In this document: piece by piece, positions 18,049 to 20,745 of the stretch | Layout of the letters: each line of letters starts with the position of its first letter | Numbering within the stretch: the stretch's first letter is position 1 | Made by a program: the position numbers and the translations under genes | The notes under the pieces: generated by a model | Database searches by the model: none | What the model saw: the letters and a program-made list of their open reading frames with translations, nothing else | What the model was told of the DNA's origin: nothing | From: Natronobacterium texcoconense | GTDB taxonomy: Archaea > Halobacteriota > Halobacteria > Halobacteriales > Natrialbaceae | Assembly (NCBI RefSeq): GCF_900104065.1 | Contig: NZ_FNLC01000003.1 | Span: 372,001 to 436,000 of the forward strand | DNA: 64,000 nt | Direction: 5' to 3'

Positions 18049-19272
18049 TCAGTCGTCCCCGCTGCCGTCGGTCGCGAGCTCGACGGTTTCGTCGTCGTCC
18101 TCGAGGACGCCGTTCGCGAGGCGACGCTGGAATCCGTGGTACTTCGCGACGCCCGTGGCGTCTTCCTGCTTGATCTTGCCCACGGTCTCGGTGTCGAAGG
18201 AAGCGTGTGCGGCCGAGTACGCGGCGTACTCGCTGTCACGGGCGACGGGACGGGCCTTGCCGCCCTCGAAGCGGATCGTAACGGTACCGGTGACGCGCTT
18301 CTGGGTTTCGTCGATGAAGCCCTCGAGTGCGCTCACGAGCGGTGCATCGACGAGTCCTTCGTAGCCCTTCTGGGCCCACTGCTGGTCGATCTGCTGTTTG
18401 AACTGGCGCTCTTCCTGAGTGAGGACGAGGCCCTCGAGGGACTCGTGAGCGTTCAGTAGCGTCGTCGCCGCGGGGTGCTCGTAGTTCTCGCGGACCTTCA
18501 GCCCGAGCATGCGGTCTTCCATCACGTCGGTACGGCCGACGCCGTAGGAGCCCGCGAGGTCGTTCAGGTACTCGATGAGCGCAACCGGCTCCATCTCCTC
18601 GCCGTCGATGGCGACGGGGTACCCCTCCTCGAACGTGATCTCGATTTCTTCGATTTCGCCGGACGGCTCGTCGGTCCAGTTGTAGATATCCGTCGGCGGA
18701 ACGTAGTTCGGATCCTCGAGTTTATCTCCCTCGACCGAGCGACTCCAGAGATTGGTGTCGATCGACCAGTCGCCGCCGCTGCCGCCCTCGACGGGGAGGT
18801 CCTTCTCGGCGGCGTACTCCTGTTCCCACTCACGGGTGAGACCGAGTTCACGCACGGGCGCGATGACCTCGAGATCCGAGTCGCGCCAGACGGCCTCGAA
18901 CCTGAGCTGGTCGTTGCCCTTGCCCGTACAGCCGTGGGCGATACCCGTACAGCCCTGTTCCTCCGCGACCTCGAGGATCGCTTCGGCGATTACCGGGCGA
19001 GCCAGCGCGGTTCCGAGCGGATAGCCCTGGTAGGTCGCGTTCGCGCGGACGCCGTCGAAACAGAGGTCGGCGAACTCCGATTTCGCGTCGACCACGTAGT
19101 GCTCGAGGTCGAGTGCCTCGGCGGTCTCTTCGGCTTCTTCGAACTCCGATTCTGGCTGGCCGACGTCTACTGTGACGCCGATCACTTCGTCGTATCCGTA
19201 TTCCTCCTCGAGCAGCGGGACACAGATCGTCGTGTCCAGTCCGCCCGAGAACGCGAGTGCCACACGTGTCAT
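18049..19272 (-). CDS. argG: Argininosuccinate synthase
   Basis: This 407-residue enzyme joins citrulline and aspartate using ATP. The PP-loop motif is at the N-terminus (LAFSGGLDTTICVPLL), followed by GCTGKGNDQLRFE and the citrulline-binding region. It is the first full gene of the arginine cluster. A TATA-like TTTAAG at 19302-19307 could drive it with a very short leader, while a second promoter and a 29-codon Arg-rich ORF lie further upstream. Confidence 0.97.
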   Translation of the reverse strand: MTRVALAFSGGLDTTICVPLLEEEYGYDEVIGVTVDVGQPESEFEEAEETAEALDLEHYVVDAKSEFADLCFDGVRANATYQGYPLGTALARPVIAEAILEVAEEQGCTGIAHGCTGKGNDQLRFEAVWRDSDLEVIAPVRELGLTREWEQEYAAEKDLPVEGGSGGDWSIDTNLWSRSVEGDKLEDPNYVPPTDIYNWTDEPSGEIEEIEITFEEGYPVAIDGEEMEPVALIEYLNDLAGSYGVGRTDVMEDRMLGLKVRENYEHPAATTLLNAHESLEGLVLTQEERQFKQQIDQQWAQKGYEGLVDAPLVSALEGFIDETQKRVTGTVTIRFEGGKARPVARDSEYAAYSAAHASFDTETVGKIKQEDATGVAKYHGFQRRLANGVLEDDDETVELATDGSGDD

Positions 19273-19301: not shown

Positions 19302-19307
19302 CTTAAA
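19302..19307 (-). promoter_or_regulatory. Proximal TATA-like box of argG
   Basis: TTTAAG on the minus strand (centre about 32 nt before the ATG at 19272) would give a transcript with a leader of a few nucleotides. If it is the main promoter, the upstream Arg-codon ORF would be bypassed. Confidence 0.45.
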
Positions 19308-19411
19308 TTCGTTGGTTTAAGTTACGAAATTTAATGGTAGAGTGCACGCTAACCGGAGAATTGTGGTTTTCTGGAACGTCGAAACGGACGGGGTCGATGG
19401 GTATGGTATAT

Positions 19412-19432
19412 GACGGGCTCAAAGGGCCCGTC
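19412..19432 (-). promoter_or_regulatory. Hairpin overlapping the Arg codons and stop of the leader ORF
   Basis: The minus-strand RNA can form GACGGGC / GCCCGTC (perfect 7-bp stem, 7-nt loop). The 5' arm contains the last Arg codons and the loop contains the UGA of the 29-codon ORF. No U run follows (AUAUACC), so it is not a standard intrinsic terminator. Confidence 0.6.
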
Positions 19433-19508
19433 GTCGCCGCCGTCGCCGGGAAACGGCAGAGCCACCGGTAGCGAAAAGGGCGAGTGCAGTACCGGTGGAC
19501 TGACTCAT
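19419..19508 (-). CDS. Candidate arginine leader peptide (seven consecutive Arg codons)
   Basis: This 29-codon ORF starts with ATG at 19508 and ends with TGA, 146 bases before argG on the same strand. Residues 1-20 are Ser/Thr/Ala/Gly-rich and residues 21-27 are seven arginines in a row (codons CGG and CGA only), then Ala-Leu-stop. A TATA-like TTTTAATA lies about 28 nt (centre) before the ATG, so the transcript could be leaderless and the ORF translated at once. The RNA can form an 8-bp hairpin inside the ORF (19462-19469 with 19491-19498) and another over the Arg codons and stop. Its layout resembles bacterial amino-acid leader peptides. Alternatively it is a small basic protein or a chance ORF. 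Confidence 0.55.
   Translation of the reverse strand: MSQSTGTALALFATGGSAVSRRRRRRRAL
19462..19498 (-). repeat. 8-bp inverted repeat inside the candidate leader ORF
   Basis: CCACCGGT and ACCGGTGG are perfect complements separated by 21 nt, covering leader codons 4-16. A weaker alternative pairing, GCCGT with ACGGC, lies just downstream over the first Arg codons. Several mutually adjacent hairpins are therefore possible in about 90 nt of RNA. Confidence 0.65.
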
Positions 19509-19532
19509 TGGTAACTCAGTATCGCCCTGCCC

Positions 19533-19540
19533 TATTAAAA
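19533..19540 (-). promoter_or_regulatory. TATA-like box upstream of the Arg leader ORF
   Basis: TTTTAATA on the minus strand is centred about 28 nt before the leader ATG at 19508, predicting transcription start at or next to the ATG. Confidence 0.55.
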
Positions 19541-19581: not shown

Positions 19582-20745
19582 TCAGTCGTCGCTTTCGCGG
19601 TCGTCCGGGAGTGCCAACACGTTCTCACGGCCGATTCGGAAGACTTCGATTTCGCCGTCCTCACGGAGGCCGCCGACGACCTGACTCGTCTTGGCCTCGG
19701 TCCAGTCCAGTTCCGAGACGACTTCCTGCTGTTTGATCCGTCCGCCTCGCTGGTCGAGCAACTGCAGGATCCGTTCCTCGTTGCTCAACAGTTCCGGCGG
19801 CGGGCCGTTGGTCTCTTGCTCTCCCTGGGTAACGTCGCCTCCGCTCGTGGCCGGCTCTGCCGTTCCTGCAGGCGGCTCCGCTTCGCTCGAGGCGCCGTTC
19901 GGTGCGAGGATCTCTTCGTGTCTGATCCACCAGCCGGCGGCACCGACGCTCGCGAGTAACGCGAGCGCGGCGGCGACGGTGAGCCATGGCATCGCCGGGC
20001 CGGGGTCGGATTCGTCGGCCGGGCCGCTGGCGTTCCCTTCCTCCATAAGGTCTATCCAGGGCTGGTCGTCGGTGAACTCGGTTCCATCGCCATCCCAGAA
20101 GACGGATCCCTCGGGTGGATCGTCCGGCGACGGTTCGACGCCGTCGACGACATACCCCTCCGGCGGGAAGACCTGTAGCGTGGTGTCTTTCGGGAGGGTA
20201 AAGCCCGAGAGTGCATCGCCGACTTCGATCCGATTCAATTCGATGTAGGCGAAGCCGGTCCACTCGAAGGTAAACTCGACGTGACCGAGTTCCCGCGGCG
20301 CGGTACTGACGTCGGTCACGACCGAAACGTTGCGAATCTCCATTTCCCGGTCGGTCTCGTTCTCGCCGTCCTCGAGGATCGCGTTCCAGTCGTCTCTTTC
20401 CTCGGCGGCGTACGCGTCGGGATTCGCCTCGACGTCGTCACGGAGCGTGTTCCAGTTCGCATCCGAATCGTTCTCGAATCGGTAGTCGACGACGAACGTC
20501 GCTGCGCCGTTCTCGTGGACGAACACGTCGATGTGAACTTCGTCCGCGTCGTCGAGTTGATCGGTTTCGTTGGCCGTCTGATCGGTTTCGTTGGCTGTCT
20601 CCTGCAGCAGCGGCTGTTCCGGCCCCGAATCGACCACACCGACACCACCGGACGTGGCCGACGCGGATGGAACGAATGCCACCAGGCATCCCACCAGTGC
20701 GAGCACACAGACCAGGGCCCACAGCCCCCTCGCGTCCATTATCAC
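19582..20745 (-). CDS. Membrane-anchored winged-helix regulator with extracellular domain
   Basis: This 387-residue protein has an N-terminal signal/anchor (residues about 7-30), an extracytoplasmic acidic domain (about 35-245) with FVVDYRFEND-type beta strands, a transmembrane helix (about 253-273), a disordered linker and a cytoplasmic winged helix-turn-helix (about 320-380; LDQRGGRIKQQEVVSELDW, KTSQVVGGLREDG). This layout matches haloarchaeal DUF7345/DUF7343-type proteins, thought to couple surface signals to transcription. ANETDQ is tandemly repeated at residues 51-63. Start may be ATG 20745 or 20739. It is the gene upstream of the arginine leader region on the same strand, though its target is unknown. 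Confidence 0.75.
   Translation of the reverse strand: MIMDARGLWALVCVLALVGCLVAFVPSASATSGGVGVVDSGPEQPLLQETANETDQTANETDQLDDADEVHIDVFVHENGAATFVVDYRFENDSDANWNTLRDDVEANPDAYAAEERDDWNAILEDGENETDREMEIRNVSVVTDVSTAPRELGHVEFTFEWTGFAYIELNRIEVGDALSGFTLPKDTTLQVFPPEGYVVDGVEPSPDDPPEGSVFWDGDGTEFTDDQPWIDLMEEGNASGPADESDPGPAMPWLTVAAALALLASVGAAGWWIRHEEILAPNGASSEAEPPAGTAEPATSGGDVTQGEQETNGPPPELLSNEERILQLLDQRGGRIKQQEVVSELDWTEAKTSQVVGGLREDGEIEVFRIGRENVLALPDDRESDD

Follow-up and report, generated by a model that had tools for sequence, protein, structure and literature searches.

The argG Leader and Its Surroundings

The window, i.e., the whole 64-kb stretch of DNA analysed here, carries an arginine cluster on its minus strand, with the cluster running from argG (18049..19272, its ATG at 19272) downwards and with gene content as in the haloarchaea of PMC10433800. 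The genome to which the window belongs consists of 4.0 Mb in 9 contigs, and its ArgG is 91% identical to Natrialbaceae ArgG. Upstream of argG, and also on the minus strand, is found a small open reading frame (ORF), MSQSTGTALALFATGGSAVSRRRRRRRAL followed by its stop, which runs from 19508 to 19419 (19419..19508) and comprises 29 codons plus TGA. Near its end are seven consecutive Arg codons (CGG CGA CGG CGG CGA CGA CGG; 19428..19448, minus strand), and 146 nt separate the leader stop from the argG ATG. An earlier, sequence-only reading of this DNA had singled out just this ORF, gap, and Arg run as a candidate arginine leader, and all three are present as described.

That reading further held that the leader ORF possesses its own TATA-like box, spaced as for a leaderless mRNA. 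This too stands, with the box, TTTTAATA, found at 19533..19540 (minus strand), with a BRE-like CAGACAGA just 5' of it, and with the first T of its TTTAAT 31 nt before the leader ATG. Among 129 leaders, the distance from the first base of the TATA hexamer to the leader ATG is 28-34 nt with a mode of 31 nt, thus matching what is expected of leaderless haloarchaeal mRNAs. The possibility that the leader might instead be a portion of the upstream gene, one encoding an HTH-domain membrane protein, is excluded, as the ORF of that gene ends at 19582, that is, ahead of the leader TATA box.

The upstream gene itself (19582-20745, minus strand) encodes a membrane-anchored protein with an HTH-like region at its C-terminus. 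At the DNA level, its 3' end is 77% identical to a stretch elsewhere in the genome (G000:C2:943781-943975), suggesting a paralogue. Rfam covariance models, including those of riboswitches, T-boxes, and protein leaders, have no match at gathering score anywhere in the window.

Two Hairpins and a G-Free Tract

Hairpin 1 (CCACCGGTA / TACCGGTGG; 19462..19498, minus strand) lies inside the leader ORF and 5' of the Arg run, with arms at 19498-19490 and 19470-19462 and a 19-nt loop. A hairpin in this place had been claimed previously, but with a stem of 8 bp, which instead is 9 bp long. Its sequence is wholly different between families, yet the hairpin is kept. Pairing of its own arms yields -25.5 kcal/mol versus -21.0 kcal/mol for arms swapped between genera (permutation sd 0.48).

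Hairpin 2, the putative attenuator hairpin (19412..19432, minus strand), is as previously proposed, its stem being 7 bp long and its loop containing the stop codon (GACGGGC / GCCCGTC, loop CCTTTGA), with arms at 19432-19426 and 19418-19412. Across 61 genus representatives its stem takes such different forms as GGGCC/GGCCC, GGCCC/GGGCC, GGGGTC/GACCCC, GGGGCT/AGTCCC, and others. The stem score with own arms is 4.88, falling to 4.19 (sd 0.08) upon swapping of 3' arms between genera and to 2.35 with shuffles. Since the MAFFT alignment A1 misaligned hairpin-2 loops of unequal length, it was replaced by a subset with equal loop lengths (A2) and by the scoring of each leader's own stem. In an alignment of 38 leaders, both sides of one hairpin-2 pair have changed in six sequences, and the covariation score is reached by 0 of 500 shuffles. 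Reversed-arm controls reproduce part of the swap effects of hairpin 1 as well as of hairpin 2, so sequence composition contributes to these differences. A GC-rich, terminator-like hairpin thus is found right at the presumptive regulatory codons and is conserved through compensation, just as one looks for in an attenuator.

One also looks, in an attenuator, for a U tract after that hairpin, such a tract being the usual archaeal intrinsic termination signal. The sequence-only reading had warned that none is present, and this caveat holds in the window and everywhere among the leaders compared. What is found there instead is a tract of C, A, and U without G. In the window this G-free tract, ATATACCATACCCATC, occupies the 16 bases directly 3' of hairpin 2 (19396..19411, minus strand, i.e., from 19411 to 19396), and it is a part of the element that shows strong conservation and had been overlooked earlier. 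Its length across argG leaders is 15-20 nt. G makes up only 1-3% of bases at +9 to +20 after the leader stop in a set of 136 leaders, but about 15-35% in most bins from +24 onward, with these averages slightly blurred by the few wrong picks which the set includes (e.g., L199, L010). C and U predominate, with no U run. From its composition and place, the tract may be considered a candidate termination or factor-landing signal.

Classical attenuation would call additionally for an antiterminator, that is, a three-segment arrangement in which the 3' arm of hairpin 1 pairs with the 5' arm of hairpin 2. This pairing can be drawn in some species, but not in a species-specific manner, and it was not adopted. 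Specifically, segments 2:3 pair no better when hairpin 1 and hairpin 2 are taken from the same genus than when they come from different genera, a comparison of low power since these segments vary little. With alternative antiterminator pairing lacking support, the model is better framed as one in which the ribosome masks hairpin 2 directly.

Conservation Before argG

The alignment of other Natrialbaceae had been put forward earlier as a means of checking for a conserved short ORF with an Arg run and for compensatory changes in the stems. Both are seen, and far beyond the Natrialbaceae. A single scan over genomic contigs yielded 80 named haloarchaeal argG loci, and in nearly all of these argG is preceded, at a distance of 120-160 nt, by a short ORF with an Arg run at its end. 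Haloferax (e.g., MATRSTFATFAPLRAAAVRPRRRAL), Halorientalis, Halobaculum, and Halobacterium are among them. A second panel consisted of one genome per genus from 60 genera outside of the Natrialbaceae, plus ten Natrialbaceae genera; families in it are anonymous (f2-f11) and can be named only via the named loci.

Arginine need not be looked for at all for the element to be found. A detector blind to arginine, requiring a TATA box, an ORF of at least 15 codons whose stop codon lies in a GC-rich hairpin loop, and a tail poor in G, yields 66 matches in the 1.13 Mb of strand sequence from the 80 named loci, 64 of them at the argG leader, with 64/80 of these loci positive. In both strands of the 64-kb window there is but one match, which is the leader before argG. 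Outside of the Natrialbaceae, 48 of the 60 genera are positive and nine more have a variant form. These variants consist of a hairpin just 5' of the stop in five genera (L151, L152, L154, L158, L176), a long ORF (L181), a GTG start (L184), and diverged versions (L159, L160). A diverged form is seen in Halohasta/Halonotius-like genera. The element is absent from three genera of two deep families, f5 and f11, in which ArgG is 56-57% identical.

Wider searches were also made. An exact-pattern search matched 94 of 391 genomes whereas its control, the same pattern reversed, matched 3. R1, a covariance model built on hairpin 2, has matches in 23 of 295 genomes of the phylum, all within the window's own order, and each of the 18 matches that were compared with known argG coordinates lies just upstream of argG (18/18). 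R1 matched argG leaders only and none outside of Halobacteria, but its strict filters missed many true leaders, and indeed in the large search the window's own leader, so R1 absences are weak evidence. Within its own genome the window site is the best R1 match (E 0.06). The leader element, then, is near-universal before argG in Halobacteria, and its position is that of an attenuator, being always before argG, co-directional with it, and with its own promoter.

The stop codon is not everywhere in its usual place. At four Natrialbaceae loci (L005, L010, L021, L023) the ORF extends past hairpin 2, the TGA being out of frame. In these, i.e., in Natronorubrum and Salinadaptatus, the Arg ORF reaches to 76-88 nt before argG with hairpin 2 retained, and they thereby represent a natural test of the role of stop codon position.

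Reading Frame and Putative Sensor Codons

With ORFs chosen solely by a TATA box plus correctly spaced ATG, Arg being ignored, 121 of 134 leaders have three or more Arg in their final 12 codons when read in frame, with the two remaining frames giving 51 and 9. Third codon positions account for 52% of the substitutions over this 12-codon stretch. Could an ORF, GC-rich hairpins, and an Arg run nevertheless have come together by chance? CGN repeats and hairpins are, after all, common in a GC-rich genome. The tests of conservation, frame, codon use, and covariation all contradict this explanation, leaving it with next to no probability.

Which Arg codons are used differs strikingly between leaders and genes. 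CGA accounts for 238 of 378 Arg codons (63%) in the last 12 positions of the named leaders, versus 27 of 1283 (2%) in the argG bodies of the same loci, where CGC is found 950 times. In the window's own genes CGA numbers 26 of 221. The frequency of Arg peaks 4-7 codons before the leader stop (136 leaders), and these codons, -4 to -7, lie immediately ahead of the 5' arm of hairpin 2 and run into it; the arm itself ends 2-6 nt before that stop. Regulatory codons overlapping the 5' arm of a terminator hairpin are what is expected of direct masking, as of the actinobacterial ilvB type, just as a short 5'-leader ORF with tandem codons for the end product is what is expected of an attenuator generally.

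This bias bears also on what the signal might be. If the nascent, Arg-rich peptide were to arrest the ribosome, then the signal would not be tRNA charging. Arg runs at the peptide's end would suit such an arrest peptide, as would the alternation of Arg and Pro in many leaders. A peptide, though, cannot perceive a third-position bias, here strongly toward CGA, and Arg number and position are variable. The parallel leaders described below, moreover, have rare Ile/Val or Phe codons and encode unrelated peptide. Peptide-mediated arrest consequently appears quite improbable.

Parallel Leaders Before ilvB and pheS

The same leader anatomy precedes ilvB in 15 of 15 haloarchaeal genera (L254-L268), including in the window's own genome (L259; G000:C4:209493-211148, minus strand). 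The ORFs here are leaderless and have (L/I)IIVGA or the like at their ends, and their stop codon is located within, or adjacent to, the loop of a hairpin of the type GTAGGGG..CCCCTAC, after which come about 20 G-free bases. Codons which are rare in the genes are again prominent, with ATT making up 23 of 29 Ile codons versus 17 of 313 in ilvB bodies, and GTA 16 of 33 Val codons versus 1 of 717. By its sequence features, the ilvB leader is a second putative attenuator of the same kind as the argG leader.

The gene pheS, too, is preceded by a leaderless ORF, one with a Phe-rich end (FGFFF, GFGFFF-type), in 14 of 15 genera (L329-L343; own genome, L332). Here the Phe codons are overlapped by a hairpin, CCGAACCC..GGGTTCGG, which is followed by a different, GGCGGACTCC-like sequence. 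What precedes pheS is, on this anatomy, classed as a related but distinct leader type. It is very likely that transcript support for it already exists, as the leader of a Haloferax-like genome is 26 aa long with a pI of 5.9, thus equaling in size and pI a TSS-supported uORF in the pheS 5' UTR from the H. volcanii start-site map (PMC4983044). Neither argG nor ilvB is in the H. volcanii uORF table, all entries of which have a low pI (PMC4983044). With the Haloferax arginine leader having a pI of 12, the absence of argG from that table is uninformative. At control genes the same anatomy is seen in 0 of 15 (trpC), 1 of 15 (hisG), and 1 of 30 (trpE/pabB) cases, and trpS shows no conserved leader ORF.

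A further reading of the argG leader is that of an ordinary microprotein gene which, equipped with its own promoter and terminator, is found before argG by accident. Besides that promoter and a terminator-like hairpin, the presence of a proximal argG promoter in many families is in keeping with this. Conservation, however, is limited to the run of Arg and to that end of the peptide which the hairpin encodes, the ORF is always before argG, which in other families has no second promoter, and the leaders of ilvB and pheS match their own amino acid. We therefore see a microprotein gene as highly improbable.

A Proposed Attenuation Mechanism

The best explanation of the locus, and one which we consider to be quite likely, is that of a ribosome-mediated attenuator of the arginine cluster. 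Under this model, transcription would start at the distal TATA box, giving a leaderless mRNA that begins with the codons of the leader ORF. Hairpin 1 would probably serve to pace polymerase and ribosome. With charged tRNA-Arg plentiful, above all that which reads CGA, the translating ribosome would get to the stop codon and depart. With arginine scarce, it would stall instead at Arg codons lying 4-7 positions short of the stop. So stalled, and presuming the usual ribosome footprint, it would sit over the 5' arm of hairpin 2 and remain close behind the polymerase, such that termination would be avoided and argG read. Attenuation, that is, would occur by direct masking of a terminator-like hairpin, and the termination signal would be a non-canonical one, lacking a U tract.

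How might transcripts be terminated by such a signal? T stretches are the main termination signal in H. volcanii, and a hairpin without a T stretch ended 59% of transcripts in vivo (PMC7237163). A ribosome coupled to RNA polymerase has been proposed to exclude aCPSF1/FttA (PMC8116511, PMC11616081), which would suit a switch operated by a stalled ribosome. Given the reported preference of FttA for U-rich RNA (PMC11616081), a G-free tract of mixed C, U, and A is only a partial fit. An unstructured G-free tract after the hairpin is thus only consistent with factor-dependent attenuation, with aCPSF1/FttA as analogue of Rho in tna.

Alternatively, the leader may sense arginine but have as its output not termination but instead RNA cleavage or decay, or ribosome access to argG, with hairpin 2 and the G-free tract representing a processing or stability element. 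Unstructured G-free RNA after a hairpin, with no U tract, would suit an RNase too, and Arg codons in the Salmonella speF leader ORF do act via RNA structure, RNase G decay, and Rho (PMC6386406). On the other hand, argG begins more than 100 nt downstream, often with its own promoter, so control of its translation by hairpin 2 is not obvious, nor is there a conserved element over the argG start codon, and in vivo termination at haloarchaeal hairpins lacking T runs is documented (PMC7237163). An output via decay, processing, or ribosome access thus seems rather unlikely, if deserving of some weight.

Comparison with Known Systems

The attenuators of enterobacterial trp, his, leu, ilv, and phe operons employ mutually exclusive antiterminator and terminator hairpins, a U tract, and a bacterial polymerase. 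The argG leader resembles these in its peptide rich in the regulated amino acid, its pacing hairpin, and its terminator-like hairpin, but differs in having no supported antiterminator, among segments which vary little. In E. coli pyrBI, the ribosome, closely trailing the polymerase, prevents the terminator directly, with UTP as the signal, whereas in E. coli tna the ribosome masks a G-poor factor-loading site, with tryptophan as the signal. Both differ from the argG leader in relying on E. coli Rho or on intrinsic, U-tract termination, and we know of no Rho in archaea.

The actinobacterial ilvB leaders of Corynebacterium, Mycobacterium, and Streptomyces have runs of end-product codons in a short ORF that overlaps the terminator hairpin, no clear antiterminator, and a position before a biosynthetic operon, all as seen with the argG leader, but with poly-U runs after the hairpin and with branched-chain amino acids as the subject (PMC1262725). 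The argG leader mRNA by contrast is predicted to be leaderless, with the stop usually in the hairpin loop and a G-free tract in place of the U run. No arginine element is reported in the actinobacterial leader survey (PMC1262725). In Salmonella, Arg codons of the speF leader orf34 sense arginine, as is predicted here for the argG leader, and translation of orf34 also blocks factor-dependent (Rho) termination; what is controlled there, though, is an ornithine decarboxylase, via RNA decay plus Rho, and the sensing codons are at ORF positions 12-13 of an unrelated sequence (PMC6386406). The H. volcanii uORFs similarly are small ORFs within long leader transcripts, ones with mapped starts, but for these no regulatory role, codon bias, or hairpin was proposed (PMC4983044).

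A search of open-licence papers found no description of a haloarchaeal arg or ilv leader and no report of leader-peptide attenuation in archaea, and as of 2021 no archaeal attenuation was known (PMC8448881). Leader-peptide attenuation as such is known from bacteria, in which a ribosome stalled for want of an amino acid turns on the operon; new here are the archaeal lineage, the leaderless ORF, and the G-free tail. Going beyond argG, there may exist a general haloarchaeal attenuation system (argG for Arg, ilvB for Ile/Val, and probably pheS for Phe) that uses rare sensor codons and, with argG and ilvB, a new termination signal, i.e., a hairpin whose loop usually holds the leader stop, followed by a 15-20-nt G-free tract that replaces the U tract. 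We give this broader proposal a somewhat better than even prospect. If true, then this system would be the first attenuation known in archaea and would suggest that archaea, with their eukaryote-like RNA polymerase, evolved or retained operons governed by the ribosome. The argG leader, as present in Haloferax, would provide a natural and genetically tractable system for directly testing the proposed exclusion of aCPSF1/FttA by ribosomes, and the leader anatomy offers a simple genome search for further operons under ribosome control.

The Proximal argG Promoter

In the window a second TATA-like box, TTTAAG (19302..19307, minus strand), is found 35 nt before the argG ATG. The sequence-only reading had cautioned that such a closer box could allow the leader to be bypassed. 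That caution applies to the window, to the Natrialbaceae, and to the Haloferacaceae, among which the proximal TATA box is conserved, so in these families the leader may be one of two inputs to argG. It does not extend to families f2, f8, and most f3 genera, where no TATA-like box is visible proximal to argG and where argG expression thus probably relies on read-through from the leader promoter.

Some 30 nt 5' of the proximal box is TAGCGTGCACTCTA (19351-19338, minus strand). This sequence is conserved in Natrialbaceae (TAG..N..CTCTA), is near-palindromic in L032, and resembles TATAGGCATCTCT in Haloferacaceae. It is possibly a transcription-factor operator, a candidate that would act on the proximal argG promoter. 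Several Haloarculaceae-type loci (L051, L064, L072, L078, and similar) have an extra small hairpin between leader and argG, about 40-70 nt before the latter, e.g., ACCGTC-CGGTT-GACGGT or TACCGCC-CGGTC-GGCGGTA, with apparent compensatory changes.
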